The notes beneath the pieces were generated by a model that made no database searches, had not been told where the DNA came from, and worked only from the letters and a program-made list of their open reading frames with translations. From Cryoendolithus antarcticus (taxonomy: Eukaryota; Ascomycota; Dothideomycetes; Cladosporiales; Cladosporiaceae): 64,000 nucleotides of DNA. Location: contig NAJO01000004.1 of assembly GCA_002077065.1 (NCBI GenBank), positions 1,358,753-1,422,752 on the forward strand, in the 5' to 3' direction. Positions 1 to 53,934 of this stretch are shown here, piece by piece. A program made the position numbers and the translations under genes. Position 1 is the stretch's first letter. Each line of letters starts with the position of its first letter.

Positions 1-534
1 AAGTCCCTCCACGCCGCCGGCGTCCAAAATAACAATATCGAAATCCAATCCGTTCCTGGCAGCTACGAACTCCCTTTCGCGGCCCAACAAATGATCCGCG
101 CGGGCGTGACCCAACATGCCGCTGGTTCGGTGGGAGGCGTGTTGGCGGCTGTGGGAGAGAAGGCGGGGGATTTGCTGGGAGGGAGTGTGACGGATCTGAC
201 GAGTTTGCCAAAGGCCAAGCCTGTGACGCAGGAGAAGTCGACGGGCCTGACGGGGCCGTTTGATGCGGTGATTGCTATTGGCGCGCTCATCAAAGGCTCA
301 ACGATGCATTTCGAGTACATCTCCGACGCCGTCTCGCATGGGCTCATGAAGGTGCAGCTAGATACGGGATGTCCGGTCGTGTTTGGGCTGTTGACGCTGT
401 TGACTGAGGAGCAGGGGCTGGAGAGAGCGGGGTTGAAGGAGGGGGGGCATAATCATGGGGAGGATTGGGGGAGTGCGGCTGTAGAGTTGGGGGTCAAGAG
501 ACGGGGGTGGGAGCAAGGGCAGTTTGTGGCGTGA
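1..534 (+). CDS. RIB4: 6,7-dimethyl-8-ribityllumazine synthase, C-terminal part (5' end outside window)
   Basis: Penultimate step of riboflavin synthesis: condenses 5-amino-6-ribitylamino-uracil with 3,4-dihydroxy-2-butanone 4-phosphate to lumazine. The frame is open from base 1 and ends at TGA 532-534, giving 177 residues with no start in the window. Family signatures seen are VPGSYELPFAAQ near the left edge, GALIKGSTMHFEYI with the catalytic-type His and substrate-binding Glu, and GCPVVFGLLTLLTEEQ followed by GHNHGEDWGSAAVELG, the usual C-terminus. A longer loop (GGSVTDLTSLPKAKP) separates the first two blocks, as is common in ascomycete enzymes. The last 30 codons are strongly G-rich. Convergent with CYM1, 147 bp away. 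Identity is secure; the missing N-terminus cannot be judged. Confidence 0.95.
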   Translation, partial: KSLHAAGVQNNNIEIQSVPGSYELPFAAQQMIRAGVTQHAAGSVGGVLAAVGEKAGDLLGGSVTDLTSLPKAKPVTQEKSTGLTGPFDAVIAIGALIKGSTMHFEYISDAVSHGLMKVQLDTGCPVVFGLLTLLTEEQGLERAGLKEGGHNHGEDWGSAAVELGVKRRGWEQGQFVA

Positions 535-681
535 GATTGCAGAGGTGCGGGAGAGGGGAAGGGGACGTGTAGGATAGGAACGAGGGTGGAAGGAAACCGA
601 GGGAGGTGCTGTCGAAAATACATAGGTGTTGTACAGAGTAGAAGCACAAAGCGGTCCATCTTACACCCCTCCTTACGTTCT

Positions 682-3600
682 TCACGCAGCAGCAGTAGCA
701 CCAACGCCCAACTCCTGCGCCATATCCTCAACCCTCCACCCCTCATCCTCCTTCACAAACCCCTTCCTCGGCCCCAAAACTACAATCCTCCCCTCACCCC
801 TCTCAAGCTTCCCCGCCAACCCCTCGGCCGCGCTCCTCACATCGCTCGCTTGCACATCAAGCAACGCCTCCCGCCTTTCCTGCTCCATATCCCTCGATAT
901 CCCAGCCTCAAACCTCACCATCCCCTCTGCACTAACGCTCACAGGCGCGTCGACGCCTTGGAAGACAGAAAGCTTAGCCTCCTCGAGCTCTTGCTCAGTC
1001 CATTGGCGATCAAGAGCCCATCTTGCGGACTCCGTCATGATCTTCAGCGAGTTCTCGGGATTTGGATCGCGGTAGGAGCTCATCGTGAATGTTCCCGAGA
1101 GTGGCCGGGAGGAAGCAAAAGCGCCGTAAGCGCCGCCTTTCTCGCGGATCTCGTGATGAAGATGCTTGTGCGTTAGTAAGGCGGCGAGGATGGAGTTTGC
1201 GGCTTGGGTTGACGTGGAGGTGTACGGTGCTGTGGGAAGGGCGAGCGCGGCGTAGGAGACTTGGTATGGGAGGGTGAAGTGTGTTCTGGAAGAGGTTGAG
1301 ATTGATGAGGTGGTGGCGGAGGATGTCGATAAGGTGGGCGTCGGAAGGGCGGCCGAGGAAGTCGACGTGAGGAAGGACTGAAGCGCGGACTCGTTTGCTG
1401 ATGTGGCCGAGGAGCCGCAGGTGAGCGCGACGCGGAAGCTGGACTTGAGGCTGGTAGATGCTAGCGCCTGGATGGCTTGGAGCTGTTTGATCAAGCCGGC
1501 CATGGCATCGGCACTCTCCTCGGCAGACGCGAGTTGAGCGATGAGCTTGACTTGCGTAAGCCCGCCAGTCTGCTCAGCCAGTCGTCCGCTCGGCCCAAAC
1601 CCTGCATTCGCGTACATTGATGCGTACATATGCCCACTTCCTGCCACAGCATCGACAGCTCCACTGGCGCCGGACTGCAGCAGCTCGCGGATCATCTTGT
1701 GTGCCTTTGGCGAATCGAAGTCAGTCTGCAATAGCAGGATCTGCAGTAGCTCATACATTGCGGGCACGTTCCGATCGAAAGCGCTGCCTCGTAGCATGAG
1801 TCCTTCGTGTGCAGTGTGCAGGTCGTGAGGCGAGCCGCTGACGTGGTAGCCGATGCTGACACCACCAGTCTTGAGCTTGATGAGATCTTCGAGCTCTTCC
1901 ATCGACTTATTGCGCGTGCCTATGCGCATCAATGCATCGCAGAACAGCGGCACAAGCATACGCAGCTCATCCGGCAGGTCGTCAAACTTCGCGATACCAC
2001 GGAAGTAAGTGAGCTCGTTCGTAGGAGCTTCATGCCACTGTACTCTCGCGTGAGCGACTGTGCTGTCCCGGATCGCAATGTCTTTTTGCTTTCGAGGGAT
2101 ATCCTTGGTACTGAGCATTGGCAGGCAGTCGACCGACTGCGAACGGCCGGCATCCTGCTCCTCGACCAGATCAAGCTCCTGCTTTCGGAGATGCTCGTAA
2201 GCAGCTTCCGCACTGCCATGCTGAGCTGTCTCTGCGTCGATCTTTGCTGCCAATCGCGACTGCTCCTCCGCGGCAAGCTCCGCTGCATATGATGCGGACG
2301 GCCGCATAGTGTATGTGAGAGTTCGATCAGAAACGAGGTACTTTTCGAGCAGATCCTCTAGATATCGCGGCTTGGCGAAGTCAGACTTGAACTTGTGGAC
2401 AATGCGATTCCACTGTAACGCATCGAAAGGGTCGTTGCCGGTGAACCACTGCCCTTGCACGTTCTGTACGAGACCAATGCCGAACTTGGCGGTCTTATGC
2501 TTCAGGCTTAGCTCCAGCTGATGCAGCATGCCATCCACTTTCTGCTTCTCGAAACCGTTCGCTATCGACTCCTTGATGGTAGCGAAAACCGTCTCCTTCA
2601 CCTTGGGCAGGTTCTCCTCAGTCACGCCATTCAAGCCAAGAGCGAAGATAGCCTTCGCCGTGTGCGAGTCATAGCCGGTATTGGGGGAGAAGTCAGACCC
2701 AAGCCCAGATTCCACCAGTGCGCGGTACATCGGCGATCCATAGCCATCGGTAAGCAGTGATGTGGCGATGTTCAGAGCAAAGGACTCCTGAATGTTGGAG
2801 GTATCGCCCATGATCCAGGCAACTGACGTGCGGTTCTGCGCGTCGGGTGCCGTCATCTGATCGAGCGGACCTTCCACAACGACATCCCTTGCTCCATTCG
2901 CGAGCGAGATCGGGAGCTTGTTCTCGTCATTGACAGTGATCTTGGTGAAACGGTCCAGCTCACGTCCGACAATTGCAAGATGCTCTTCCACAGGCGTGTT
3001 GCCGTATGTCAGGATCTTGCTGTTGCTCGGGTGGTAGTGCTGTTGGTGGAAGTTGCGCAGCTGCTCGTAGGTGAGATCGGTGATCTTTTGTGGCTCGCCA
3101 CCGAAGAAGTTCAATGACGGTGCGATCTCCTGCAGCCATCGCATGTAGTAGAAGTAAGTCGCGTCCGAGAATTGCCCTTTCATCTCGTTGTAGACGACAC
3201 CTTTGAAGACCAAGTCCTTGCCACCGGCGTCTGCAGGTGCAGCTGGGTTCTCTGGACCGACTCGCCACCCTTCCTGGATGAAGTCTGACTTCTTCAGCAA
3301 GGGATGCAGAGTCGAGTCGAGGTACATCGTCATCAAGTTGCGAAAGTCCTTGGGGTTAGTCGTAGCAATAGGATACATCGTATGATCGAGAGATGTGAAC
3401 GCGTTCATGAAATTGTGCAGAGACCGTGGAAGCATCTTGAAGAAAGGATCGCGAATCGGGTACCTACCTTTCCGTCAACACCTGTGGTCTACCCCTCACG
3501 CGCCTGCGTCTGCTTACTTCTCGCTGGAACACAATGTGACATGCTCGAGTATGTGTGGTACCCCGGTGGCGTCTGGCGGATTCGTCTTGAAGCCGATGCT

Positions 3601-6871: not shown

Positions 6872-8041
6872 CTAGGCTGGGACAGGCAGCCCGTCCTTGC
6901 GTAGGAAGATATAGCCTTCCGGGACCGTCCCATCCTCGTATACCTGTGCCATGATAGCGCCATTCAGGGCAGTGAGATTCTCGTCCATGTCGGCAAGCAG
7001 AGGGATCTGTAGTTCCGTTAGCCCCAGCTGTCGTCACGTCGCAGCGACAGGAACGCGCACTTACCACCACAGTCTGCTGCCCATACTTGTCCCTCACGAA
7101 CTGCGCAAAGCCCTCCTGCTCGAGCTTTTTGGCATGTATGCAAGCCACGACGGCTTGCGGTCTGTTGATCTGTGACACGTACAATGGTCAGTCTCGTGTG
7201 TACAGCACGACGCAATAGCAATGCAACAGGCACGATGTCAGCATACCTCGATCCGCCAAGCTCTCACGGCATCCTGTGCACTCAGCGCAAACCCCAGCAC
7301 CACAAACTTCCTCCCGCCCTGCTTCACGCGTTCCGCCACCATTCGCTCCAATACTCTCTTTCCCAGCAGCCCATGCACTCCCATCCCACCCTGTAGCGCC
7401 CGCTTACAAGCATACAGATCTACCGGTACGATCTCGCGCTTCGCCACGGCGGGATCGGAATGTGACACCCAGGTTGCAAGGTGGGCGTAGAGATCTAGAA
7501 CTTCCCAGCCGGCGTGACTGGTGCAGAATGAGTTCGCGAGATGACGGGCGACACGGTGTTCGTGGAGCTCGGCGGGAAAGGGGGAGAGGAGCAGGATGGT
7601 TTTGATCGCTGATTGAATCTTGGGGAGAGAAGCGTGTCGTGGTAAGCCTGGGCTGCGATCTTGAGGATGCATCGTCTCTTCTTTCGGCGTGTTGTACACC
7701 TTATCCTGCTGCTTAGCCGACTTGCTCGCGTGGCTCTCTAGCGCGCGGCGTAATTGTGAGAATCCAAAGTTCGCCTGTGGCGTGACAGAGGGGCCACAAA
7801 GCTGGGGTGGAGTTGAGTCGGCGATAGTGTCTGATAGTGAGATCTCGTCGTCGTCGTTATCGATGACTATGGGTTCGGACAGATGATGTGGTGTTGCTGG
7901 GCGTAGTTGAGGTGCCGGAGGCGGGGTGGAGGGCTCCGAGAGGGGCGAGGAAGGAGCATAGGTTGGCGAGGAAGGTGCATGGGTCGGCGAGACATCAGCG
8001 TGCGTGCGAGAGGTGTGATCTGGGGTGTAGCGGGAATACAT
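6872..8041 (-). CDS. uncharacterised protein with acidic SIM-like motif, three exons
   Basis: Not recognised as a named family. Exons 8041-7247, 7169-7065 and 7006-6872, all phase 0, join to 344 residues; donors GTATGC and GTAAGT, acceptors CACAG and TACAG. Residues 1-65 are Ser/Thr/Pro-rich and disordered. A motif PIVIDNDDDE resembles a SUMO-interacting motif (hydrophobic core followed by acids). From about residue 145 to the end the chain looks folded, with blocks LLSPFPAELHEHRVARHLANSF, ending in VYEDGTVPEGYIFLRKDG. The structured C-terminus is spread over all three exons and splices cleanly, which supports a real gene. Start at MYSRYTP is chosen as the first Met after a region without coding character. 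Tandem with the next minus-strand gene. Confidence 0.75.
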
Positions 8042-8625: not shown

Positions 8626-9594
8626 TTAAAGCTCCATTTCATCATCACCACCATGGCCACCCTGCTGCACCGAACCGAAATTCTCCCTAGCCATTCGCTC
8701 GTTCATCGCCTCCCAGTCAGCATGATTTCGGATCTGCTGGTAAGAACCATATTGATCAGCCATCCCAGTCTGCTGCTGCATCGCATGAGCATAAGTCGGC
8801 GCCTGCCAAAGCCCGCTCGCAGCTGCGTACACCGGATCTATAGCGCTCGACCGACGGGGGTCAGGTGCCTGGTAGCCAGTCAGGATGTATGGCTCTGCAT
8901 CGACGACTCCATGCCGGGTCTGCGGACGACTCGATGCGATGGACGCTGCTCGCATTCGTGCTGCTGGCGGAAAGGCAGGCTCGTGGGCTTCTCGTATTGG
9001 TGTGATTGGTTCGATCTCAATGTGAGTGTCGAAGTGGCCCTGGCGTGCTTGCATCTTGGCCTCATACCGTTCGCGTGCCTGGGCGATCTCCTGAGACATG
9101 CTGGTTGGTATGTGCACGCTTCGCAGGTGTTGTGAGAAAGGGTATGAGGGTGGCGAAATGCGCCATAGCTCCAGCAAGCGTAGTCTCTGGTCATGCTCAG
9201 CGTTAGCGAAGAGATGTACTTGGCTCTGCAGCAGGGCATTGGGGTCTATGGAGTGGTCACGGAAGACCTGGGCTAGCTCCTCTGGCATCTGATTCTCATG
9301 GTAAGGAGGTGGCGGGCTGTTCGATGTCTCTGACGCGTTGTCCGTCCGTATGTGAGCTGTGTGAGCGTAGTGGCTGGATGCGAAGACTACTTGGTCTTGC
9401 CCAAGCATTGTTGCAGTCTGCAAAGGTGGCAGTGGCTTCGACATACCACTCGACGGTTGCTGGTAGGCGTGATCCTCTTGTATTGGAGCAAAATGCATGC
9501 CTCGTGCGAACATCGCAGCCAGCTCGTCTTGCTGTGTGTACGCCATGTCGTTTGAGATTCGATCTCCAGTCGGAACGAGACTCGAGCCTGGCAT
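8626..9594 (-). CDS. uncharacterised 322-residue protein
   Basis: Single-exon frame of 322 residues, not recognised as a named family. A second Met at residue 17 (9546-9544, MAYTQQDELAAMFARG) is an equally good start. The sequence has a Pro/Tyr motif PPPPYHE (PPxY-like, a possible WW-domain ligand), a central segment SQVHLFANAEHDQRLRLLELWRI followed by PPSYPF that looks conserved and helical, and Gln/Tyr/Ala-rich disordered flanks. It ends in an acidic DDEMEL. No signal peptide or membrane segment is visible. Codon usage matches neighbouring genes, which supports coding. Function cannot be assigned. Confidence 0.7.
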   Translation of the reverse strand: MPGSSLVPTGDRISNDMAYTQQDELAAMFARGMHFAPIQEDHAYQQPSSGMSKPLPPLQTATMLGQDQVVFASSHYAHTAHIRTDNASETSNSPPPPYHENQMPEELAQVFRDHSIDPNALLQSQVHLFANAEHDQRLRLLELWRISPPSYPFSQHLRSVHIPTSMSQEIAQARERYEAKMQARQGHFDTHIEIEPITPIREAHEPAFPPAARMRAASIASSRPQTRHGVVDAEPYILTGYQAPDPRRSSAIDPVYAAASGLWQAPTYAHAMQQQTGMADQYGSYQQIRNHADWEAMNERMARENFGSVQQGGHGGDDEMEL

Positions 9595-10385: not shown

Positions 10386-11993
10386 TCAGTATGTAGTCTC
10401 GTACGCATAGCGTGCGTAGTCGTCGTCGTCGTCAGAGTAGTGATTGTGCTCCACATTGTCCATAGTGATCTCCTCGTCGCCGTACCCTCCCTCAGAAGGA
10501 GAGTCTCGCGCCGTGGACGACGACTGCTCGCTGCCTTCGTCGCTATCTTCGTTCGAGTCGTCATCGTGGGACTGCAGCGGGGAGAAGCCCGCTCTTTCTA
10601 CTGCGTGGTCGTCATGTTCATTATGGTCGTTTCCTGTGATTCTCACAGAGATGCCGTCGTGTTCATTATCGTCGTTTGAGTCAGATTCCGAGTCGTCGCT
10701 GCTTCTTGAGAGCACCGATACTCGTGTATGATTCACCGTGGCAGTAGGACGCCTAGACTGCGGCACTCCACGCGCAGACGGTGCCTTCCTACGCGTCCTG
10801 TGAGTCATGATCGGCGCATCGTCGTCAGAATCGTGAGCTGCAATTGTGACTGCAGGTGCGCGAGTAGCTCCCTCTTCGTCATCCGAGTCGATAACTATCG
10901 GTGCGCGTCGCTGTACACGGCGTCGGGGCTGAGCAGGGGTGGATTGCGCTTCTGACTCATCGTCAGAGTCCGCCCCACTGCGGCTCTCGCTGTTATCCGA
11001 CTCCTCGGCCTCGGAAGCAATGAAGCCGTCCAAATTTGTATCGTCCTCCTCCTCTTCGGATGACTCTTCGGACTCCGAGGATATCGCAACAGCCTGAGTG
11101 CGAGCATGCGCACGTCTAGCCTCTTCTCGCCTTCTGCGGCTTCTGCTCTGCTGCAAAGGACGACGCGGAGGCGGCAGGATTCCAAAGACGCTCTCGTCGA
11201 GTGCAGGAGCGTCAAAGTCATCCTGATCAAGATCGGCATCGAACGAGTGAGTGTCATCCTGCTCCGCGAGCAGTTCGTGGTCGATCTCCTCCTCCCCACT
11301 TACATCAGAGTCATCGTCACTGCTATACGCAAGGCCGTCATCTCCTGCGAACTGGGGGCAGCGGAGACACTCTCCGTCTTCGAGTTCCCATAGACACCTT
11401 CGGCATCGCCGAACGCCGTCTCCAACATCATGCAGGGCTGTGCCTCTCATGCGTCGGTGTTCACCAAAAATACCGCGAAACAGCCCGCTCTCATGTTCCG
11501 TCCCCTTTGCCTTATCACTCGCTACCCTCACTGCTGCCTCCGTGGCAAAGTGTTGATGCTCGACCAGATCCTCTTCCGCAGAAAGTAGCTCAGGTCGTGT
11601 CGTGAAGATGATCGTCATCTCTCGTACAATGAACGACGGCGTAGGTTGGAACCCTACCACAGCTCGACAGTCAGGACATGTTTGCTTCTTCTGCGTCACC
11701 AGCCAGGCGTCCAGGCAGATGTAGCAGTAGGTGTGCCCACATGCGAGGGAATACGGTTCAGTCAAGAAGCGATAGCACATCTTGCAGGTGATGAGTTGGC
11801 GCATGGCCTCGAGATCTGGCTCCAGCTTGCGCAGCGCGACTTGATAGTGGCAGTCATCACTGCCTGCTGTGTGTTCGTGTTTGCTGCTGGGGGGTTTGGT
11901 CGAAGTAGATTGGCGGACAGCCTCGCGCTCGTGTGAGACCTTTTGCCTCTTACGCGCGGTATCCTGCGTACTGAGCCCAGCGCGAGAGAACAT
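10386..11993 (-). CDS. RING-finger E3 ubiquitin ligase with long acidic SIM-bearing tail
   Basis: Predicted nuclear ubiquitin ligase, 535 residues, single exon. A complete C3HC4 RING lies at residues 70-109 (C70, C73, C85, H87, C90, C93, C106, C109), preceded by a short helix and followed by a basic/hydrophobic segment ending in TIIFTTRPELL. A second Cys cluster, CRRCLWELEDGECLRC, near residues 205-220 could bind another zinc. The remaining 300 residues are an extreme Asp/Glu/Ser run with PIVIDSDDEEG, a SUMO-interacting-motif-like element. N-terminal RING, second Cys cluster and acidic tail resemble the histone-directed ligase Psh1 in outline; a SUMO-targeted ligase is the alternative. Neither is proven. 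Divergent from COX23 with only 248 bp between starts. Confidence 0.8.
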   Translation of the reverse strand: MFSRAGLSTQDTARKRQKVSHEREAVRQSTSTKPPSSKHEHTAGSDDCHYQVALRKLEPDLEAMRQLITCKMCYRFLTEPYSLACGHTYCYICLDAWLVTQKKQTCPDCRAVVGFQPTPSFIVREMTIIFTTRPELLSAEEDLVEHQHFATEAAVRVASDKAKGTEHESGLFRGIFGEHRRMRGTALHDVGDGVRRCRRCLWELEDGECLRCPQFAGDDGLAYSSDDDSDVSGEEEIDHELLAEQDDTHSFDADLDQDDFDAPALDESVFGILPPPRRPLQQSRSRRRREEARRAHARTQAVAISSESEESSEEEEDDTNLDGFIASEAEESDNSESRSGADSDDESEAQSTPAQPRRRVQRRAPIVIDSDDEEGATRAPAVTIAAHDSDDDAPIMTHRTRRKAPSARGVPQSRRPTATVNHTRVSVLSRSSDDSESDSNDDNEHDGISVRITGNDHNEHDDHAVERAGFSPLQSHDDDSNEDSDEGSEQSSSTARDSPSEGGYGDEEITMDNVEHNHYSDDDDDYARYAYETTY

Positions 11994-12671: not shown

Positions 12672-14081
12672 TCAGAGATAAGTCACCTTCTTGCCCATTA
12701 GGTCCTTCACGATGTCATCCAGTTCCTCCCGCTTCCGCTTCCTCTCAGCTTTATCCCCCGCTGCGAACCCCATCCCATTATCTGCGTCATCATCGTCAGC
12801 TGCCTGATCCTCCCAGGTCCGTGGACTGTAGCATCGGATACGGCCATCAGAGTGCGCGGAGTACAGCTCCATTGAGTGAGGCCGCCATGCGAGGGATGTT
12901 GTGGTGTTCTTCAGATTGCGGATCGCAGGCGTAGACGCCGTCACTGTAGTCTCAGCCGCAGGAGGCGCAGCCATACGTAGACGCTGGCGTAGGGTCCCGG
13001 CATGGAGATCGAACACCAGCACCTCCTGCGGATTGGGATAGAACACAGTCGTCTTCCCTGCAGGCTCAAGATGAGCAGGCGCCAGTACTGGCAGCAAAAT
13101 AGTGGTCTGGCTGTTCTTGAGCGTCGGCCCGAAGTTTGCCAGCGTGTTCGCCCCTGTCGACATGTTCCAAACTCGCATCTTCTCGTCAGTACCTGAAGAG
13201 ACGAGATGTCGGCCATCCTCGGACCACACGACACCATTTACCGCACCTACATGTGCCCTCCCGCGCTCTCTACGCCGAGCCCCAGTGCCTTTGCCATCAT
13301 ACCCTGGGATGCCAATGTTGTCGTCCATGTCCAGCACACCAAGACTACTGGCACTGCGGCGAATGTCCCAGAGTCGAACAGTACCATCAGTAGCGCCACT
13401 GGCCAGGATGTTGGGATCCTTGGGATGCCATGCGACTGTCAACACTGACCCGGAGTGCCCAGCAAGGGCGTGCGCGCTTGAACCTGACTGTAGGTCGACA
13501 AGCCGTACCGCGGGGTGCGCTGACGCACATGCCACCAGCAGATGTGACGCTGTAGTCGAGGTTGCATGAGAGTGCACAGTGCCTCCAAGATCGAAGCTAG
13601 CACTGGCTTCCAACGTCCCAGACGAGAAGACCTTGACTGTGCCATCATAGCCACTCGTAATGAAAGCTAGACTGTCGATGAAGAAGGAAACATGAGTGAT
13701 CCCTAGACTACCCGTTGCCGATGTTCGTGAAGCGTATTCGAGTGGTGTGTGAGCAACCTTCCCGGTAGGAGATGCTGCTGCACCCTCCAAATCCCAAATA
13801 GCCACCGAGGAGTCCGAGCCAGCAGAGAGCAGGTAGCGGCCTTCCCATCGGTCGATGGCGATGCTGTTGATACCTGCAGCGTGTGCTGGTCGACCGCTCT
13901 GCCGCTGGCCTACACTGCCATGACTGTTGTTCGCAGTCCAATCAATCGGACTGGGTTCCTCAAGCTGGAAGGAGACATTCCCATTGGCCTGCAAGGATTG
14001 TAGTAGTCGTTGATTCTGCGCCTGAGCAAGCGCTGAGGGGCTGACAGAGCCAAGCTGCCTGTTCAGCAGGAAGGCGTTCAT
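12672..14081 (-). CDS. RAD28: CSA/ERCC8-like WD40 repeat protein (transcription-coupled repair)
   Basis: Likely fungal counterpart of Cockayne syndrome A (ERCC8) and yeast Rad28, a substrate receptor of a DDB1-Cul4 ubiquitin ligase acting at stalled RNA polymerase II. Single exon, 469 residues. The diagnostic segment is HAAGINSIAIDRWEGRYLLS followed by AGSDSSVAIWDLE, matching the CSA first repeat (GGGIN...EGRY.LSGGSD). Further WD repeats follow, with AGHSGSVLTVAWHPKDPNIL, ASGATDGTVRLWDIRR and AHVGAVNGVVWSEDGRHLVS. The C-terminus is acidic then basic (DDDDADNGMG... KAERKRKREEL). Another DDB1-associated WD40 protein is the main alternative. Convergent with COX23 and divergent from HEL2. Confidence 0.85.
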   Translation of the reverse strand: MNAFLLNRQLGSVSPSALAQAQNQRLLQSLQANGNVSFQLEEPSPIDWTANNSHGSVGQRQSGRPAHAAGINSIAIDRWEGRYLLSAGSDSSVAIWDLEGAAASPTGKVAHTPLEYASRTSATGSLGITHVSFFIDSLAFITSGYDGTVKVFSSGTLEASASFDLGGTVHSHATSTTASHLLVACASAHPAVRLVDLQSGSSAHALAGHSGSVLTVAWHPKDPNILASGATDGTVRLWDIRRSASSLGVLDMDDNIGIPGYDGKGTGARRRERGRAHVGAVNGVVWSEDGRHLVSSGTDEKMRVWNMSTGANTLANFGPTLKNSQTTILLPVLAPAHLEPAGKTTVFYPNPQEVLVFDLHAGTLRQRLRMAAPPAAETTVTASTPAIRNLKNTTTSLAWRPHSMELYSAHSDGRIRCYSPRTWEDQAADDDDADNGMGFAAGDKAERKRKREELDDIVKDLMGKKVTYL

Positions 14082-17978: not shown

Positions 17979-19038
17979 ATGGCGTTCGTAAATAAGCTCG
18001 CGATCATAGCCGGAGGCGTAGGTACATTGATGCCTCCTAATCCCCTTCAAGTCTCGTTCGCAATGCTGACCAGACTTAGGTGGCATCGGCTCCGCCACCG
18101 GCTGTCTCCTTCGATCTCAAGGCGTCAGTGCAGCTCTCTTGTGCAGTCCCAAGTCTGGTGGTCCTGACATTGTGCCCACATAGGCCAAGCTAGCTCTCCT
18201 CTACGCCCCCTTCGAAGCCTCACGAGTGAGCTCCGTGATTAAACAGACATACACCGACTTCGACAACGACGATGATAGCATCAAGACCTATGCCTGCGAT
18301 ATCACGCAGCCTGAAAGCGTCAAGGAAGCTTTTGGCAAGATTGGTGAAGACCGCGTCGCGGTGCCAAATATGCTGATCGTATGTCTCATTCCTACCCACT
18401 CATTACTCCGACTCTGCGAGTTGACCAGCCATGCTAGAACTCCGCCGGCTACGTAAATCTAATGCCCATGTCCACGCTCACCCCCGAAGACTCTCTCCTC
18501 CACTACCAAATCAACGTCCACGGCCCCCTCCTCTGCGCCCAAGCCTTCCACGCCCTCTACCTCGAACACCGCACTTTGATGCAGTCCGCCATCTCCTCCG
18601 GTCAACTTCCCTCCAGCACCAAAATCTCCGGCGCCAGGATCGTCAATATCGCCAGCCAGGCTGGGCACGTCGCGCTGAAGGATCATGGCGCTTATTGTGC
18701 GAGTAAGGCTGCGTTGCTGGCTTTGACGAGGCAGATGGCTAGTGAATGGGGAGCGGAGGGCGTGGTGGCTAATAGTGTTAGTCCGGGGCCTGTTTGGACG
18801 GAACTGGGGAAGAAGGCTTGGGCTGATGCGAAGGCGAGGGAGGAGTGGGTTCTTGCTTGATTGTGGGGGGTTTGGGAGTGCATGCTGACGATGTGATAGG
18901 TATCAGGCTGCTGTGCCTACTGGTAACTTTGCTGAGCCCGAGGAGGTCGCTGAGATTGTAGCGTTTCTTTGTAAAGAGAGCTCGAAGAATATCAATGGGG
19001 CGGATGTGAGGTTGGATGGGGGTTATACTGTGAGATGA
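17979..19038 (+). CDS. short-chain dehydrogenase/reductase, five exons
   Basis: Classical SDR oxidoreductase, 275 residues, substrate unknown. Exons 17979-18021, 18080-18123, 18184-18378, 18438-18844 and 18900-19038; introns 55-60 bp. Features: Rossmann glycine motif split by intron 1 (IIAGGVGGIGSATG); NSAG at the start of exon 4; catalytic Ser in IVNIASQAG; YxxxK as YCASKAALLAL; and the PGPVWTELGKK and GGYTVR C-terminal blocks. For intron 2 the GTCAGT donor after SQG was chosen because it gives AKLALLYAPFEASR. For intron 4 the GTGGGT donor (18845) was preferred over GTTCTT. The Gly-motif Thr of the usual TGxxxGIG is Ala here. Exon 4 contains the sharpest codon-usage switch in the window, near 18660. 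Confidence 0.88.
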
Positions 19039-25800: not shown

Positions 25801-26801
25801 GGACGCCATGAAGGACGACGAGGATTTCCTCTTCGCCCAGCAAGCTCTTGCTGACGAGCATGCTGCAAGCCTTGGTGATGTCAAGTTCTGGGCATACAAG
25901 CAGAAAGAGATCAAGTCCCTCAACAGCGGCTTCCCTGGCGCTGAACGTACCGACTCCGGCATCGAAGGCTACTACGTCCCCAACTCCACCGGCTCCGCCC
26001 GCACGGAAGGCGTCAAGAAGATCCTCAACGAAGAGAAGTCCAAATACCTCCCCCACCGCATCAAAGTCCAACGAGCCCGCGAAGAACGCCAAGCCCTCGC
26101 CAAAGCCAACCCTCTCGCCGTCGCAGAGACCGTCAAGCTCACAGCCGCCGACAAGATCGTCGCCACCGCCTCTTCCCGCAGCAACCGCGTCAACAACCGC
26201 CGCCTCGTCAACGACATTAACCTGCAAAAGCAATCTCTCGCCGCCACCGCCACCTCAACATCCCAAGACGTCGACGTCGCCATCCGCTTCAACCAGCTCA
26301 AGAAACGCAAGAAGCACGTCAAATTCGAGCGCTCTGCAATCCACGGCTGGGGCCTCTACGCGGAAGAAAACATCGCCATCAATGACCTCATTATCGAGTA
26401 TGTGGGCGAGAAGGTGCGCCAGAAAGTCGCGGATATGCGCGAGATTCGGTATGAGAAGCAGGGCGTTGGGAGCTCTTATTTGTTCCGCATGATGGACGAC
26501 GAGATTGTGGACGCGACTAAGAAGGGGGGGATTGCGAGGTTCATCAATCATAGTTGTAGTCCGAATTGTACAGCGAAGATTATCAAGGTTGAGGGGACGC
26601 CGAGGATTGTTATTTATGCGTTGAAGGATATTGGGAAGGGTGAGTCTCCTTTGTGATGGCTGATTGGATTGAATGTGTTGCTAATGCTGTCTTGCAGATG
26701 AGGAACTCACGTACGACTACAAGTTTGAGCGCGAGTATGGGTCTACGGATCGCATACCGTGTTTGTGCGGGTCGGCGAATTGTAAGGGCTTCTTGAACTA
26801 G
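22806..26801 (+). CDS. SET1: Set1 histone H3 lysine-4 methyltransferase (COMPASS catalytic subunit)
   Basis: Methylates H3K4 at active promoters as the catalytic subunit of COMPASS. Exons 22806-23435, 23546-26639 and 26698-26801 give 1275 residues; introns 110 and 58 bp. Residues 1-200 are disordered and Ser/Pro-rich; an RRM-like domain follows (about 262-350, [15 protein letters not shown] and YFGIAMIKY); a poly-Pro/Ala linker; the second conserved region ([20 protein letters not shown]); the N-SET region (about 960-1110); SET domain about 1136-1255 with the signatures [20 protein letters not shown] and, after the last intron, DELTYDYKF; and post-SET CxCx4C ([13 protein letters not shown]) ending at the stop, as in all Set1 proteins. 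The last intron separates the SET core from its final motif, so a single-frame prediction would lose the catalytic C-terminus. Confidence 0.96.
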
Positions 26802-33899: not shown

Positions 33900-35255
33900 A
33901 TGGCGCTCATCAGTCCCACCCTTCACATCGAAGTCCAGCTCAGATCCCCGACGCCTGCGAACACCCAGACTGCTGTCAGAGCGGAGGTGGTGACTTGAGT
34001 AGAGCAGATGTACAAGGCTGTCGAGATCGGCTCGAAGCTCAAGTTTGAGACTCGGCTGAAGCACGACAAAATCGTCGTCAGAGTCCAGATAGTTGACTTT
34101 ACTGGTCCGCTGCAGTCATCGAATTGGATCGATGTTGAAGATGTACAGCTAGATGTGCAAACTTATCATCTTCGACGGCCAGATGACACCGGTGGCCGCC
34201 GCTGTGTCAAGCAAGACGAGCACTCCTCACAAGCCCGCACCTTAGCTCTTCCCAACGCTCTCCTCACCGACGAATGGGATTCGCTTGTCTTTGACGATGC
34301 GCTCCCAGCTCGCCTCCTCCGCTATCTCGTCCGCATGGTAGATATGATGGGCCAACCTGGTCTTAATCTCGCGACGTTCAATTGGAACCGTCTCTGCCTT
34401 CTTCACGGTCCACCAGGCAGCGGCAAGAGCACACTTTGCAGAGCTCTGGCCCAGAAGCTGGCCGTTAGGCTCGGCGAATCGTTTGCTGCTGCCGATCTGG
34501 TCGAGATCAATGCTAATGCCATGTTGAGCAAGTATTTTGGCGAGAGTGGGAAGTTGATCGAGAGTACGTTCGATGGTATTATGGAGAGAGCGAGGGATGG
34601 GAAGAAGTTGATTGTTGTGGTCATTGATGAGGTTGAGACGATCGCCGGGTCGAGGAAGCTGGCTAGTGGTGGTGGGGAGTGTCATGATGGGCTTCGTGTG
34701 ATTGCATATCATGCAAGTCGCTACGCGAACAGTGCTGATTAGATGTCCAGGCTACCAACCAGCTGCTCACCGCGCTCGATCGGCTCTGTCATCTGCCGAA
34801 CGTCATCACTTTGTGTACCAGCAACATGCTGGAGGCAATCGTAAGCTCGTCCCTAACCCACCAACGGGTAGCACTGACGTCGCGTCCAGGACCCAGCCTT
34901 CCTCGACCGCGCCGACATCAAACAATACATCCCCAGTCCCTCCAGCTCGGCAATCTACAACATCTTCCGCTCCTGCCTCAATGAGCTCGTCCATAGCCAG
35001 CTCGTCACTGCAAATGATGATGTGCCCACTCTAGCCACTACCCACATGACCTTGCACGACTCGCCAGACTCCGCTGGCTTCCGCTTGTGGAAAATGTCAG
35101 ACAAGTGTGCTAGACTGGCGATGAGTGGCAGGACGCTTCGACGGCTACCAGTTCTCGGACTCGCGACGTACACCTGGGGTGTGGCTCAGACGCTCGACAA
35201 TGCTGTGGCAGCTTTGGAGAACGCTGTAGAGCAGGAGGTGCTGAGCAGAGCCTAG
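33900..35255 (+). CDS. PCH2: Pch2/TRIP13 AAA+ ATPase, N-terminus uncertain (in-frame TGA)
   Basis: Remodels HORMA-domain proteins; acts in the meiotic pachytene checkpoint. Secure exons: 34008-34697, 34751-34840 and 34890-35255 (381 residues from the ATG at 34008), introns 53 and 49 bp. Walker A is GPPGSGKST, Walker B LIVVVIDEVETIAG, and the sensor region contains NVITLCTSNMLEAIDPAFLD; LPNALLTDEWDSLVFDD is a Pch2 hallmark. Upstream, 33900-33992 encodes MALISPTLHIEVQLRS and a helix ending RAEVVT, apparently the true N-terminus, but an in-frame TGA at 33993-33995 separates it from VEQMYKAVEIGSK. A GT-AG segment of only 18 bp (33990-34007) would remove it; 33-bp and 75-bp alternatives also keep frame. 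It may be an atypical intron, a nonsense mutation or a sequence error. Confidence 0.85.
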
Positions 35256-41026: not shown

Positions 41027-42430
41027 ATGGCACCTAGCGCCATCGACTACAACAACGACAATGCGTATCTGTCAGTGACCAATAATCACGTGAAAGGAGG
41101 TCATGGCTTTGCAGTGCCAGCAGTTGAGCGTCTCAATGGGACAAATGTGGCGAAGGAGATGATTGGCGCCGCGCTGCAGAAGCGTGTGCGTGCAATCGAT
41201 ACGGACACCTGTGTGGCGGGAGAGGAGGATGCCTTCTTTGTGGCGGATATGGGAGAAGTCTACCGCCAGCACATGCGCTGGAAGAAGCATCTCGGCAGTG
41301 TCACGCCGCACTACGCTGTAAAGTGCAACCCGGATCCTGTCATCATCAAGCTGCTAGCGGCACTTGGATCTGGCTTCGACTGTGCGAGCAAGACGGAGAT
41401 CGAGCAGGTCTTGCAGGCGGGCGTTGAGCCGTCCCGCATCATCTACGCGCAGCCGTGCAAGACCAAGAGCTACCTGCGCTACAGCGCTCAACAGGGTGTT
41501 AAGCAGATGACCTTCGACAATACTGATGAGCTGTACAAGATCAAGGCGATCTGTCCGCAGGCTGAGCTGTACCTCAGGATCTTGACAGACGACTCGGCCA
41601 GTCTCTGTCGCCTGAGTCAGAAGTTTGGCGCTAGCATGGACAGTGTGCCCGAGCTGCTTGCACTTGCTCGAGAGCTAGACCTGGACATCGCAGGCGTGGC
41701 CTTTCATGTTGGATCTGGCGCATCGGATCCGACTGCCTTCCACAAGGCCGTCTCAGACGCACGCGACGTCTTTGACCAGGCTCTGGCTCTTGGCTTCACA
41801 CCCCACACTCTCGACGTCGGCGGTGGTTTCATCAGCGAGACATTCGATGAGATGGCCGCTGCGCTGTCCCAAGCACTCGATCAACACTTCTCGCCCAGTG
41901 TTCGTATTATCGCCGAGCCTGGCCGGTACTACACCAGCGCTGCCTTCACCCTGGCCTGCAATGTCATTGCTCGGCGTACCGTGCAGGATCCGGTCACTGG
42001 ACTGCACAGCTATATGCTCTACCTCAACGACGGCGTCTACGGCAACTTTAGCAGCATCATATTCGACCACCAGCATCCGGTCCCGCAGGTGCTATTTCGT
42101 GCTCGCCGAATCAATGGACTCCACTGCTCCAGCAGCCTTTCTCTCGCCGACTCCGGCTACAGCTCATCCGATGACGAGACTTCTGCCGACAGATCTGCGC
42201 AGCACAAGGCAATCGAGTACTCGATCTGGGGACCTACTTGTGATGGGATCGACTGCATTGCCGAGTCTTGGACTTCCCCGCAGCTAGTCGATGTTGGGGA
42301 CTGGCTGTACTTCGAGGACATGGGTGCGTACACGAAATGTAGCGCTACCAGGTTCAACGGGTTCACGGACAAGCATGAGACGGTGTATGTATGCAGTGAG
42401 GCGGGTGCTAGTGCGTTGCTGGGGTTCTGA
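41027..42430 (+). CDS. SPE1: ornithine decarboxylase
   Basis: Rate-limiting enzyme of polyamine synthesis (ornithine to putrescine, PLP-dependent). Single exon, 467 residues from the ATG at 41027 (MAPSAIDYN); the frame extends 14 codons upstream to an ATG at 40985 that is less likely. Lys99 in HYAVKCNPDP forms the Schiff base; glycine-rich phosphate site LDVGGGFISETF; EPGRYY; Cys405 in GPTCDGIDCIAE is the dimer-interface catalytic cysteine. A Ser-rich insert (SSSLSLADSGYSSSDDETSA) before the WGPTCD motif is typical of filamentous fungi. Regulation by antizyme and leader sequences is known for the family; the upstream region here is long enough for that. Convergent with the CID gene, 88 bp apart. 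Confidence 0.96.
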   Translation: MAPSAIDYNNDNAYLSVTNNHVKGGHGFAVPAVERLNGTNVAKEMIGAALQKRVRAIDTDTCVAGEEDAFFVADMGEVYRQHMRWKKHLGSVTPHYAVKCNPDPVIIKLLAALGSGFDCASKTEIEQVLQAGVEPSRIIYAQPCKTKSYLRYSAQQGVKQMTFDNTDELYKIKAICPQAELYLRILTDDSASLCRLSQKFGASMDSVPELLALARELDLDIAGVAFHVGSGASDPTAFHKAVSDARDVFDQALALGFTPHTLDVGGGFISETFDEMAAALSQALDQHFSPSVRIIAEPGRYYTSAAFTLACNVIARRTVQDPVTGLHSYMLYLNDGVYGNFSSIIFDHQHPVPQVLFRARRINGLHCSSSLSLADSGYSSSDDETSADRSAQHKAIEYSIWGPTCDGIDCIAESWTSPQLVDVGDWLYFEDMGAYTKCSATRFNGFTDKHETVYVCSEAGASALLGF

Positions 42431-42518
42431 AGAGTAGAGAGATAGACAAGGGAGGGCATTGAAAAGTTTGTTGTTACAGGAAATGGTCTTGTCCTTCTCT
42501 TGATGATCTTCCAGCCTT

Positions 42519-43604
42519 TCATGACATGCTCAGATACCACGCAGGCTGACGATCAGCCTCTTTCCGCTTTGCAATCCCTTCATAAGTAAAGCCGTAGTAG
42601 TTCCTTGTCGGCCGCTCCCGGTCCTTCCACACTACACTCCCCAGCGCGTCTACATCCTTCACCTCCTCAGCATCAGTATACTTGTCAAAACACCGCAGCG
42701 CTTCACGATGCAGCTGCTCTACATCCCGCCGCAAAGCCTCACTCGCCTGCTGCCCGCCACGCTGCAGGTACATTCCACCTGGCTTCAGCGCGTTGGCATG
42801 GATGGGGAAGCCACGCATTCGCTTCTGGTAGAGTGCATTTGTTGCAGGGAGATCGTGCCAGGGTGTTGTTGGGTCGTGAGGGAGGTGGTGTTGGCGCGGG
42901 AGGATCCACTTGCTTTCTTCGCCTTTTCGGCGTTGCTCGTCGAGGATTGCTTTGGCTTCCTGGGAGGCGAGGTGGCGGTCTAGATCGTCCCATGTGCGAG
43001 AGACTGTGATAGACGATTGCAGATCGCTGCATTGCTCGGATGTGAAGATCGAGAGCCGCTCCCAGTAGTCAACAATGCGTTGGACGGATGCCAGGGTAGT
43101 GCTAGGTCCGTTGCCTTCGCTGTGAGCTGCCAGGTGGGCAAGCGACTGGATGGCGGACTTCAAAGCCTCGGTGCAAGCAGGGCTGCTAGTGCTCTGTTTT
43201 GCGTGCGGTCCGTCCTTCAGCCGTGTGAACATGAAGCACAGCACATCGTGCAGTACGTAAGTAAGATGCAGCCTGCGAAACGCTGCCGTTGGAGGGTCTC
43301 TCGACTTTCTAGTCCCAGAATCTTCAAGTCCCTCGAGATCGTCGGCGATCGGAGACGTGCAGGACTTGCTGAAAGCGACCAGATACTTCGACAACGCCGT
43401 GGTCCTCGTAGCTGAGGGAATGATGTTCCGGGTAATGAAGTCTTTGCATGCTTTGACTTCTGCCTTGGTACATATGTTCGATGCTCGTGACAGAGCTCGC
43501 GTGAAGATTACCGCATCGTCTCGGGATATGTCGGGTGCTGCACTGTCGAAGTCGCGCCGGAGCAGCGTGCTCGTGAAGACCGCTTTGGCTACTGAGATGC
43601 TCAT
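42519..43604 (-). CDS. CID-domain (RNA polymerase II CTD-interacting) protein, CHERP/SR140-like
   Basis: Probable RNA-processing factor. Start chosen at MSISVAKAVFTSTLLRRDF (43604), giving 361 residues; the frame runs 16 codons further. Residues about 1-150 fold as a CID/VHS-like helical domain: KAEVKACKDFITRNIIPSAT with TTALSKYLVAFSKS and RRLHLTYVLHDVLCFMF correspond to the CID helices that bind the Pol II CTD. A middle helical part contains QRIVDYWERLSIF. The C-terminus has HDPTTPWHDLPATN, close to the PWYDLPA motif that follows the CID in CHERP-type proteins. A CHERP or U2-associated splicing role is inferred from this. Divergent from the splicing factor PRP39 with a 255-bp shared promoter, which fits a common RNA-processing theme. 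Confidence 0.8.
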   Translation of the reverse strand: MSISVAKAVFTSTLLRRDFDSAAPDISRDDAVIFTRALSRASNICTKAEVKACKDFITRNIIPSATRTTALSKYLVAFSKSCTSPIADDLEGLEDSGTRKSRDPPTAAFRRLHLTYVLHDVLCFMFTRLKDGPHAKQSTSSPACTEALKSAIQSLAHLAAHSEGNGPSTTLASVQRIVDYWERLSIFTSEQCSDLQSSITVSRTWDDLDRHLASQEAKAILDEQRRKGEESKWILPRQHHLPHDPTTPWHDLPATNALYQKRMRGFPIHANALKPGGMYLQRGGQQASEALRRDVEQLHREALRCFDKYTDAEEVKDVDALGSVVWKDRERPTRNYYGFTYEGIAKRKEADRQPAWYLSMS

Positions 43605-43859
43605 GCTGCGCTTCTGTGAGGTGTATACATACAGACTACGACTGCCCTGCATTCATATGTGGGAGAGTCAGTGGCTCTCGCTTGGCTCTGCTAGCGCAAT
43701 GAGGCTCTGCGGAGCTGCTGTCCGAGGCATCTTGCGCGCCAGTGAACTTGAACCTCAGCGTCTTCTACCCTTCACCAGCAGAGCCACTGCCACTGCTACT
43801 CCCCTTTGCCACTCCCCATTATCTCCATCATTCGCTGTGCTCTGCATGAAGCGTGCGCA

Positions 43860-46463: not shown

Positions 46464-47455
46464 ATGGTCTGTTTGCACTTCAGCGACTATAGCGGAGCTA
46501 CTCATTGACCAATTACATGTAGACGTCGATAGGCACAGGCTACGATCTCTCCAACTCCGTCTACTCCCCCGATGGCCGCAACTTCCAAGTCGAGTATGCC
46601 GTCAAGGCGGTTGAGAACGGCGGCACAGCGATTGGAATAAGATGCAAAGATGGTGTTGTCCTCGCGCTTGAGAAGCTCGTGACGAGTAAGCTACAGAAGA
46701 AGGATGCGAATAGACGGATTGCTACAGTGGATCGGAACGTCGGCATCGTATGTTGCAATGCAGTACATCGATTAGGATACGCCGACAAGCACTGACACTC
46801 GCCCCAGGTCTCAGCCGGCCTCCTCCCCGACGGCCACCATCTCGTCTCCCGTGCCCGCGACGAAGCCTCCTCCTGGCGCAGCACCTACAAAGCGCCCATC
46901 CCCGTAACTTCCCTTGCAGACCGCATGGGCGCCTACGTGCAAATGTACACGACCAGCAGCGGCGTGCGACCTTTCGGCGTGACTGCCATTCTTGGTGGCT
47001 GGGACGCGGAGACCGAGGTCGATGTTGATGGAGTGGTTGGGAAGGGTCCTTCGACTGGTGCGGGAGGGAAGACGAAGGGCGCCAAAGAGGGTGGAGCGTA
47101 TCTCTACATGATTGAGCCGAGCGGTGCGTATTGGGGGTATTATGGTGCTGCGACGGGCAAGGGCAGGCAGGCGGCCAAGGCGGAGCTGGAGAAGCTGGAT
47201 CTGGATCCAAAGAAGGGTGCGACGATAAGCTTGGAGGAGGGCGTGAAGGAGGCGGCGAGGATTATCTATGTGGCGCACGAGGAGAGCAAGGACAAGGAGT
47301 TTGAGCTCGAAATGACGTGGGTGAGTGCTGTTAGCGGGCCTACAAAGGGAAAGCATGAGGAGGTGCCCAAGGCGTTGAGGGAGGAGGCGGAGAGGTTGGC
47401 GAAGAAAAGCCTGGAGGGTGAGGATGAGGAAGATGATGGGAAGATGGAGGAGTAG
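46464..47455 (+). CDS. PRE10: 20S proteasome alpha-type subunit Pre10 (alpha 7), start codon as its own exon
   Basis: Non-catalytic alpha-ring subunit of the 20S proteasome. Exons: 46464-46466 (ATG only), 46523-46747 and 46808-47455; 291 residues. The 56-bp first intron (GTCTGT...TGTAG) separates Met from [20 protein letters not shown], the alpha-subunit signature; no ATG precedes TSIGTGYD in the second exon, so the start must be upstream. Other family blocks: [59 protein letters not shown]. An insert ([20 protein letters not shown]) and an acidic tail ([13 protein letters not shown]) are typical of this subunit. Convergent with FCF1. Confidence 0.92.
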
Positions 47456-47952: not shown

Positions 47953-48596
47953 TCACTTCTCCGGCGCATCCGGCAACCTCTCAATCACATACTTCCCCCT
48001 CGCCACACTCACAATTGGCACCCCTGGCACCTTCCTCACCCGCCTCTTCAAATCCCGATCATTCGTCGCCACCAAGTAAATCCTCTGCTTCACCACCCGA
48101 TCCACAATACAGTCATCCGCGTACGTTCCCTTGTGATCGCACTTCAGGCGCTCAAACTTCTCGTCTCGGGCTATTTGCAGCGCGATGCGGTATTTAGGGC
48201 CTAGCTTCTCCAGCTCGGCCATCACGCAGTCGGTTATCAGTGGCGTACAGGTCGCGTAGAGGGTGTCCATTAGGGTGGTGAGAAGAGGGAGTTTGTGGTG
48301 GACTGTGTGGGAGAGGAAGTTTGTGTCGACGAGGATTTGGTAGGGGGCTTGCAGGGCGGTGTTGTGTTGGAAGAAGAGGTTTGAGGGGGCTTGGGGGCTG
48401 GATTGAGGTCAGTAAAGGCTTCATATATCGAGGTGGACAGTCCGACGTACATCTCTCGTATCAGCTCATCGCCAGGCTTCTTCTTCTTCTGCTGGGCATC
48501 CGCTGCGGTCTCTTGGTTCTTCTTTAGTCGCGCATCGCGCTGTCCGATGACTCGCTTGACGGTCGCGAACTTGCGGACCTTCTTTGCGACTCCCAT
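47953..48596 (-). CDS. FCF1: Fcf1, PIN-domain 18S rRNA-processing protein
   Basis: Essential nucleolar PIN-domain protein of the SSU processome, required for early pre-18S cleavages. Exons 48596-48451 and 48397-47953, intron 53 bp (GTACGT...CAG), 196 residues, the normal size. N-terminal basic region MGVAKKVRKFATVKRVIGQR; splice restores EIPQAPSNLFFQHNTALQAPY. PIN acidic residues are in ILVDTNF, MAELEKLG, YADDCIVDR and ATNDRDLKRRVRK. The C-terminus, PGVPIVSVARGKYVIERLP, is near invariant. Coding strand goes from C-rich to G-rich about two thirds along. Divergent from CSI2. Confidence 0.95.
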
Positions 48597-52617: not shown

Positions 52618-53021
52618 TAGAGGAATGCATCTTTGGAGCCATCAGCACACGTGTCGCATGCTTTGCTGATGGCGGTGGGTCAAATCTTCCCCGGGACATG
52701 CATGCTTCTGTATACCAAAGCCTTATGTTCCAGCGCTTACGGTGTACCATGTTCACGATGATATGATTGGAACTTGGGTAAACTTTGCTATGTCTTCCAT
52801 ACGCTTGTGCGCGCTTCGTCGGTGTGGTGTGGGCCAACACTCTTGCGAATGCTGAACCCGGGTAAAATCAACGCTTGCATGTGCCATGAAGCACGGGAGA
52901 CGTAATGAAACCTTCTCCGCTCGCTCCATGCTCCCTCTCTGCCTTGGTATAACTGCTTCTCTCATGCTACCTCACTCCACTTGCTCGATCTCGCGCGCCT
53001 TGGACGACCTCAAACGAGAAT
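52618..53021. terminator. convergent 3' spacer between acyltransferase and 14-3-3 genes
   Basis: 404 bp, no gene recognised. Confidence 0.35.
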
Positions 53022-53934
53022 CTACTCCGCCTTGGGCTCCTCGGTCGTCGTCGCAGCAGCCGGCTTCTCCTCCTCGGTCGCAGCAGCAGCTGCTGGCGCC
53101 TCCTGAGTGGCAGCCGCAGCGGGCGCAGCCTCGCCCCCGTGGTCATCCGAGGACGTCCACAGAGTGAGGTTGTCACGCAGCAGTTGCATGATGAGGGTGC
53201 TGTCGCGGTAGGAGTCCTCGGACAGGCTGTCGAGCTCGGCAATCGCGTCGTCGAAGGCCTGCTTGGCGAGGTGGCAGGCGCGGTCGGGCGAGTTGAGGAT
53301 CTCGTAGTAGAAGACGGAGAAGTTGAGGGCGAGGCCTAGGCGGATGGGGTGGGTTGGGGTGAGCTCCGTCTGTGCCACGTCGGTTGCGTTCTTGTAGGCT
53401 TCGTGGGCGGCGGTGGCGGCGGTCTTGCGCTTGTCGCCCGAGGCGAACTCGGCGAGGTAGCGGTGGTAGTCGCCCTTCCTGCGATGTTTTCCGTCAGTGG
53501 GCTGAGCGTGGATGAGGCAGCAAGGCCGTTGGTGAGGCAGCAAGTGCAAGTACGTACATCTTATGGTAAAAGACCTTGCTCTCGCCGGTCTCGGCCTTGG
53601 GAATGAGGCTCTCGTCAAGCACATTCAGCACATCCTCGCAAACCTGCTCGAGCTCCTTCTCGATCTTCTGGCGGTAGGAGCGGATGATGCCGACGTGCTG
53701 GTCGGACCCCTTGGCCTCCTCCTTCTGCTCGATGCTGCTGATGATGCGCCAAGACGCGCGGCGGGTGCCGACAACGTTCTTGTAGGCGACCGAGAGCAGG
53801 TTGCGCTCGTCGACTGTGAGCTCGCCGCCGATCTTGGCCACTTCCTTCATGTACGTGACCATCTCATCGTAGCGCTCCGCCTGCTCGCACAGCCTCGCGA
53901 GGAAGGTCTTGCTGTTGCGCTCCTCGGTGGCCAT
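53022..53934 (-). CDS. BMH1: 14-3-3 protein
   Basis: Phosphoserine-binding dimeric adaptor, regulator of signalling and metabolism. Exons 53934-53558 and 53478-53022, intron 79 bp (GTACGT...CAG) splitting the KMKGDY codon; 277 residues. Start [20 protein letters not shown] is chosen over a Met 10 codons upstream because it matches the family start. Signatures: [79 protein letters not shown]. The tail is an Ala/Glu/Pro-rich acidic run of about 40 residues. This is the outermost clearly essential-type gene, about 10 kb from the telomere. Confidence 0.96.

Follow-up and report, generated by a model that had tools for sequence, protein, structure and literature searches.

Toward the end of a contig of the fungus Cryoendolithus antarcticus, the coding strand of many genes changes from C-rich to G-rich on the way to the stop codon, which raises the question whether such a switch belongs to pairs of convergent neighbours or to gene ends as such. 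The stretch concerned comprises 64,000 nucleotides (nt) (assembly GCA_002077065.1, contig NAJO01000004.1, positions 1,358,753 to 1,422,752) and is called the window below. The initial annotation had located the switch by eye in eight genes and described it as a mirror image around convergent gene ends; as explanations it considered a role in termination between convergent neighbours, with R-loops favoured by G-rich 3′ ends, or transcription-linked asymmetric mutation. We find that the gene-end strand skew is real and general in the stretches analysed. It very probably (about 0.95) represents the intragenic strand asymmetry already known from fungi, whatever the neighbouring gene does. Transcription-linked asymmetric damage or repair is our tentative explanation for it, with a probability a little short of one half (about 0.45).

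Strand skew at the ends of convergent and tandem genes

The assembly consists of 46,965,068 bases in 149 contigs, and the window is the end of contig C84 in our numbering. Besides the window, the stretches C46:1-200000, C13:300001-340000 and C84:700001-740000 were analysed. The first 61.1 kb of C46 are the second copy of the window and were excluded from all independent counts; the independent sample is 283 kb of the 47 Mb genome, from four stretches on three contigs. Genes were modelled by ourselves as predictions without RNA support, initially with a simple finder and then with a stricter one that scores branch points and gives equal odds to fourfold codons ending in G and in C. The stricter finder returned 154 predictions with 130 introns (median 58 nt), 103 of which have a CTRAY branch motif. 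After removal of the second copy, of genes cut by an edge and of genes below 200 codons, 106 of the 154 predictions were kept; introns were analysed in 117 genes with 150 codons or more. The stricter models underlie the 106-gene counts, the intron edges, the change-point scan and the test of fourfold boxes, next bases and amino acids. The initial models underlie the codon shuffles, the shifts at twofold sites and codon positions, the profiles of the untranslated regions (UTRs), the gap test, the G runs, the C-rich dip upstream of the stop and the divergence between the two copies.

At fourfold sites in the last 60 codons, G exceeds C in 87 of the 106 genes, and the skew there is higher than in codons −240 to −120 in 94 of them (Wilcoxon p = 1e-14). 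Counted in codons from the stop, the fourfold GC skew of these genes is +0.40 in the last 30, +0.28 at 30-60 and +0.15 at 60-90, then turns negative (−0.07 at 90-120, about −0.25 at 160-250). G predominates within the last 30 codons of 87 of 104 non-tied genes. Gene starts lean the other way, with a fourfold skew of −0.33 in codons 1-30 of the 106 genes and more G than C in 21 of 98 non-tied genes. Compared with synonymous shuffles, in which codons were permuted inside fourfold boxes within each gene, the end skew gave z scores of 12 in the window (24 genes) and 15 elsewhere (66 genes). It is present in all four stretches and is weakest in C84:700001-740000 (+0.18, 12 genes).

A skew profile aligned to the stop codons and split into convergent and tandem genes, as suggested in the initial annotation, revealed a consistent step at both kinds of 3′ ends. 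The mean end skew is +0.385 for 63 convergent and +0.298 for 43 tandem genes (p = 0.16; p = 0.20 with the initial models), and the downstream skew profiles of the two groups are similar. The mirror image stands as a description of convergent pairs, where the plus strand indeed reads G-rich, spacer, C-rich, but it is not limited to convergent ends and is due to gene orientation alone. Placing the pattern around convergent gene ends was too narrow, because tandem genes step likewise at their own 3′ ends.

The core phenomenon is already published. McLean and Tirosh (2011; PMC3315797), in the parts of the paper available to us, report for dozens of fungi, the majority of those examined, that genes begin with a C bias and finish with a G bias, so that the pattern is not undescribed, as had been assumed for the window. 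According to them, fourfold sites, promoters, 3′ UTRs and amino acid use are affected, the 3′ maximum lies at the stop codon and any link to expression is weak at most, and they propose both mutational and adaptive causes. C-biased starts, G-biased ends, the extension into promoters and 3′ UTRs, the change in amino acid use and a flat all-base AT skew are all found here as well. Intron edges, neighbour orientation, twofold sites and the dip are not analysed in those parts of the paper, whose text contains the word intron once and the words convergent, R-loop and antisense not at all. An excess of C over G near gene starts was reported for plants and fungi by Fujimori (2005; PMC555766); that work deals with gene starts, and gene ends do not appear in its abstract. 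Among the findings below, the keto signature at synonymous sites, the dip and the step at intron edges may be new, as judged from a limited literature search.

Sites, extent and intron edges of the asymmetry

The synonymous shift toward the gene end is one from amino (C, A) to keto (G, T) bases. At fourfold sites G replaces C and T gains over A, and their GC content stays nearly constant (0.61-0.65 within 300 codons of the stop). At twofold pyrimidine sites T replaces C, whose share falls from about 0.70 to 0.47-0.55; at twofold purine sites G gains on A, its share rising from about 0.65 to 0.82. The shift is seen in 8 of 8 fourfold boxes and in 4 of 4 next-base contexts. It also includes the non-synonymous codon positions 1 and 2, and among the last 60 residues Glu, Gly, Val and Lys are more frequent and Ser, Thr, His and Leu less frequent. 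It spans about 270 nt inside the stop codon and, weakly, about 100 nt past it; across these 100 nt the skew of the 3′ UTR declines from +0.29 to +0.08 (89 genes falling to 62). The 5′ leader is C-rich, with a skew of −0.24 to −0.16 in the 100 nt before the ATG (90 genes).

Two simple causes were rejected on the basis of this distribution. Selection on codons or translation alone is insufficient, since the skew extends into the 5′ leader, which is C-rich, and into about the first 100 nt of the 3′ UTR, which are G-rich, and since all boxes and contexts shift together with codon positions 1 and 2. Deamination limited to CpG was discarded because the shift precedes all four next bases. C-to-T deamination in general was argued against in the accessible parts of PMC3315797 on the grounds that AT skew is flat. 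Here too the all-base AT skew hardly varies: 17 of the 18 bins that cover the last 900 nt have values of about +0.05 to +0.10. This argument is weakened, however, because the AT skew at fourfold sites alone turns at gene ends.

A C-rich dip lies about 360-1000 nt upstream of the stop. Codons −250 to −120 of 40 genes with 450 codons or more have a skew of −0.315, compared with −0.057 in the gene middle, and are the lower of the two in 30 of the 40 (p = 3e-5). In terms of position, the skew is negative at 0-270 nt from the start and positive at 270-600 nt, positive at 0-270 nt from the stop and negative at 360-1000 nt.

A similar step is seen at introns. After adjustment for position, fourfold sites are G-shifted up to 180 nt before donors and C-shifted up to 180 nt after acceptors; averaged across genes, exons are keto-rich ahead of introns and amino-rich behind them. 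The first version of this result was open to bias from position and false introns. The repeat used the stricter finder, included position terms and shuffles, and looked at introns common to both copies and at each stretch separately. With terms for the distance to start and stop and with shuffled intron positions as the null, the edge difference at fourfold G/C sites over 150 nt is 0.206 for introns with a validated branch site (null standard deviation 0.033; 0/500 shuffles). The other site classes gave 0.139 for twofold T/C (0/500), 0.147 for twofold G/A (0/500), 0.085 for codon positions 1 and 2 (0/500) and 0.073 for fourfold T/A (1/500). When all introns were included, the values for fourfold G/C, twofold T/C, twofold G/A, codon positions 1 and 2 and fourfold T/A were smaller (0.174, 0.107, 0.110, 0.064 and 0.055, the last with 5/500). 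Three introns of the window, all on the plus strand and present in both copies, illustrate the step: at 34698-34750 the fourfold skew is +0.69 in the 150 nt before and −0.08 after the intron, at 34841-34889 it is −0.08 before and −0.78 after, and at the PRE10 intron (46748-46807) it is 0.00 before and −0.78 after.

The intron-edge step, unlike the gene-end skew, might be an artefact of the home-made gene models or of intron placement within genes. The introns were predicted from the DNA, and the C13 stretch (40 kb, 12 introns) has no step (−0.02). Paired tests of internal introns, those far from gene ends, gave modest results: of 19 validated ones, 13 go in the expected direction (p = 0.03), and of 15 unvalidated ones 10 do, which is not significant (p = 0.45). 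Among 19 introns found at the same place in both copies, 17 are informative and 14 of these go in the expected direction, in a count that is unadjusted for position. Against an artefact, the finder is neutral between fourfold codons ending in G and C, and the shuffles of intron positions match the observed step in none of 500 trials in four classes and in one in the fifth. Moreover, the step is bigger for validated than for all introns, and with position modelled from 58 intronless genes alone it is 0.199 (95% interval 0.128-0.268, 66 introns). By stretch it amounts to 0.31 in the window, 0.22 in C46 and 0.22 in C84:700001-740000, where the interval touches zero. We consider an artefact rather unlikely and the step probably real in the predicted gene models; an annotated genome is needed here, and should the step fail in annotated genomes, the finding would be one more species with a known pattern.

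A bias of the same sign on both sides of the intron, as splicing enhancers might give, was not found; the donor and acceptor sides shift in opposite directions. Warnecke (2008; PMC2374712) likewise describes, in the available part of the paper, exon ends that depart from exon cores. The pattern there is called approximately symmetric in many species, whereas here the two intron sides shift oppositely over about 180 nt. A review (PMC10030826), in the part available, mentions opposite exon and intron asymmetries in human and mouse, which are not carried over to yeast. No report of an intron-edge reset in fungi was found among the matches listed in a search of open-licence papers. Three branch-validated introns are predicted in the C46 copy but not in the window; their genes start at 5488, 13744 and 44525 (0-based), and they are candidates for intron gain or loss or else model errors.

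Possible causes of the gene-end skew

We know of no accepted cause of the gene-end skew in fungi. Exposure of a displaced strand is expected to give net C to T and A to G changes on the coding strand, and the C to T and A to G shifts at twofold sites are the net changes expected of a more exposed coding strand. Transcription-linked damage or repair might thus be asymmetric and produce net C to T and A to G changes on the non-template strand. The asymmetry would be low just behind the start site and behind introns and would rise toward the gene end. One candidate source would be that the displaced strand lies exposed, as in R-loops. A gradient that restarts after start sites and introns would fit, a role in convergent termination would not be needed, and antisense transcription from 3′ ends might be added to account for the dip. 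According to the part of PMC10511428 available, which cites Bonnet 2017, yeast R-loops are lower on genes with introns than on intronless ones, and an intron inserted into a yeast reporter lowers them. In the initial annotation a step confined to convergent ends was to support termination and a step at all 3′ ends a mutational bias. The step found at both kinds of 3′ ends falls on the mutational side. The initial interpretation is supported in part, with transcription-linked asymmetric mutation a possible cause, which the flat divergence between the two copies along genes does not favour.

The two copies were compared with mutation and selection in mind. Most of the window (1-63009) has a second, reversed copy at C46:3048-61054, with 81-88% DNA identity, and the end skews of the copies correlate (r = 0.85; both positive in 19 of 27 gene pairs). 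The genome may be that of a hybrid or a whole-genome duplicate; a literature search with the species name and duplication found no paper. Segment 57398-58086 is missing from the collinear position in the second copy and is 93% identical to C46:172881-173563, which is above the background and points to a recent dispersed copy or a transfer.

Several observations weigh against a damage or repair gradient. Fourfold divergence of the copies is 0.27-0.31 in each gene zone (27 gene pairs), and in the last 60 codons the differing sites have a skew of +0.22, compared with +0.60 at identical sites. The data are fitted slightly better by a model in which the process of the gene body works on a skew of older date than by one with an equilibrium of its own in each zone (log-likelihood better by 2.8 and 3.6). 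This slightly favours a relic over a maintained skew, but uneven constraint among sites would look alike. The flat divergence, the less skewed differing sites and the model fit therefore leave room for selection or for a process that was formerly stronger. In addition, the dip is not expected from a gradient that simply rises, the skew drops quickly past the stop codon, and the C13 stretch lacks the intron-edge step. Intron cores near the stop are barely shifted (+0.03, confidence interval (CI) −0.11 to +0.18, 14 introns); those in mid-gene have −0.14 (CI −0.25 to −0.03, 29 introns). A strong G-richness of introns near the stop (+0.26, 15 introns) was dropped, as it came mostly from introns without a branch site in the initial models; with validated introns it was +0.08 (11 introns) before the final value. 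Finally, in Drosophila it is negative GC skew that goes with R-loops, the opposite sign (PMC9254486, available part).

The alternative that survives best, though still somewhat unlikely in our view, is selection on nucleic acid or amino acid composition, with mutation uniform along genes and the skew held by selection. Examples are a preference, behind start codons and acceptors, for amino-rich RNA with little structure, or a pacing of RNA polymerase by C content (McLean and Tirosh). Selection would agree with the nearly equal divergence across zones, the stronger skew of identical sites, the zone-specific stationary model not being preferred and the early fall of the skew after the stop. The end skew also correlates with the GC content at third codon positions of the gene middle (rho = 0.46) and weakly with the use of C at twofold sites, a crude codon-use proxy for expression (rho = 0.24, p = 0.02). 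Against selection, fourfold boxes, twofold sites and codon positions 1 and 2 all shift together, leaders and trailers carry the skew too, and fourfold divergence is not lower at gene ends, as constraint would have it. Specific RNA pairing was not seen either. In the first 60 eligible genes the dip paired with its own end zone no better than in swapped pairs (p = 0.23), and the same held for pairing across 47 introns (p = 0.74).

With a damage or repair gradient as the preferred cause, the exon rather than the gene might be the unit of the asymmetry, with an amino-to-keto gradient written by transcription and reset by each intron. We regard this extension as doubtful. If the reset is true, it separates the models, since it is predicted by R-loop or nascent-RNA packaging models and not by a uniform transcription bias, translation selection or termination signals; the composition of gene and exon ends would then have to be modelled in fungal gene finding, in codon usage and in the evolution of protein C-termini. 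Base composition would record the exposure of the displaced strand and perhaps former intron sites, and where the skew rises and falls within a single-exon gene, this would be a trace of lost introns. In 14 interiors of single-exon genes the skew is patchier than in codon shuffles, both by variance (z = 3.1) and by neighbour covariance (z = 3.8). Abrupt falls and rises did not differ in the same 14 interiors (p = 0.46).

Two-way transcription could also create the pattern. If sense and antisense transcription both started from nucleosome-free regions at the two gene ends, the 3′ end would resemble the reverse complement of a gene start. The start and stop terms are antisymmetric, and the dip would be accounted for. 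The 3′ terms, however, are about twice the 5′ terms, two-way transcription alone predicts no intron step, and antisense transcription is hypothetical here. We consider this origin distinctly unlikely.

An R-loop or another G-rich signal that terminates transcription between convergent neighbours is very improbable, and a convergent-specific termination was rejected: the slightly higher mean end skew of convergent genes is not significant, tandem ends behave the same, the convergent gap has no influence on end skew (58 convergent genes, Spearman 0.007), the skew peaks inside the coding region and not in the spacer, and G runs are rarer than in codon shuffles (449 compared with 477 expected for three or more G, z = −3.1; 125 compared with 152 for four or more, z = −4.1), with paired runs at expectation (100 compared with 95, z = +0.8). 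A specific end motif was also rejected, as 6-mers beyond codon shuffles are weak, the top one, TGCTGT, is not G-rich, and GGGG is under-represented. Work by Ginno from 2013 reportedly found that human genes carry GC skew and R-loops at their 5′ as well as their 3′ ends and tied the 3′ skew to termination in gene-dense places. The coding strand that is G-rich near 3′ ends is common to both cases; here, in contrast, the skew does not depend on how neighbours are oriented or spaced, and G runs are not in excess.

Switch positions in individual genes and the window end

For single genes, a change-point scan was run on fourfold G/C sites of the last 750 coding nt with 500 permutations. Of the 28 window genes covered, 17 switch significantly (p < 0.05) from C to G and 10 show nothing significant; MAK11 alone switches the other way. 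Names of window genes are taken from Pfam matches or from the initial annotation. Seven of the eight switch positions that had been read by eye were reproduced within 1-114 nt (each p ≤ 0.002).

In four convergent pairs both partners end in a G-rich 3′ zone. RIB4 (Pfam DMRL_synthase, plus strand) has its zone at 141-534, with the switch 391 nt before the stop and a change in skew from −0.50 to +0.63 (p < 0.002); its neighbour CYM1 (M16C_assoc and PreP_C, minus strand) has one at 682-946 (−0.48 to +0.84), the scan placing the switch at 946 and the eye at 1060. The SDR gene (adh_short, plus strand) changes from −0.71 to +0.67 (18665-19038, p < 0.002; 18665 in the scan, 18660 by eye) and faces CSC1 (RSN1_7TM, minus strand), which changes from −0.18 to +0.45 (19168-19567, p = 0.012). 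ODC (Orn_Arg_deC_N, plus strand; 42199-42430, −0.41 to +0.60, p = 0.004) converges with the CID gene (Pfam CID, minus strand; 42519-42789, −0.33 to +0.84, p < 0.002), whose switch lies at 42789 compared with 42790 by eye. PRE10 (Proteasome, plus strand; 47035-47455, −0.46 to +0.57, p < 0.002) and FCF1 (Fcf1, minus strand; 47953-48253, −0.71 to +0.63, p < 0.002) form the fourth pair, with switches at 47035 and 48253 that had been read as 46970 and 48150.

The zone of SET1 (Pfam SET, plus strand; 26362-26801) follows a strongly C-rich stretch, and the skew rises from −0.93 to +0.35 (p < 0.002; 26362 in the scan, 26400 by eye). In the gene at 6872-8041 on the minus strand, the zone at 6872-7445 contains two introns and the skew goes from −0.41 to +0.35 (p = 0.002; 7445 in the scan, 7430 by eye). 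Tandem ends on the minus strand have such zones at 8626-8851 (−0.14 to +0.86, p = 0.024; the downstream neighbour is on the same strand), 10386-10815 (−0.28 to +0.41, p = 0.038) and 12672-13158 (−0.31 to +0.43, p = 0.020). MAK11, named in the initial annotation and matched in Pfam by WD40 only, is the exception in detail. In its 3′ part (27109-27919, minus strand) the rise near 27900 is confirmed in 60-codon bins, but the skew then drops and climbs again, so that the scan of the last 750 nt gives an opposite step (p = 0.03).

The single-exon genes CSC1 (19168-21789) and MAK11 (27109-28644) have internal rises and falls of skew besides the rise at the end. A gene with a HET domain (heterokaryon incompatibility) near the telomere (60760-62736) is without end skew. 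The window ends with the contig, in an outward-reading array of TTAGGG telomere repeats (63885-64000). The preceding AT-rich subtelomeric segment (63240-63884; GC content 0.41 in 63001-64000) has many CTA, TAG and TATA words and, by eye, could be a mutated repeat.

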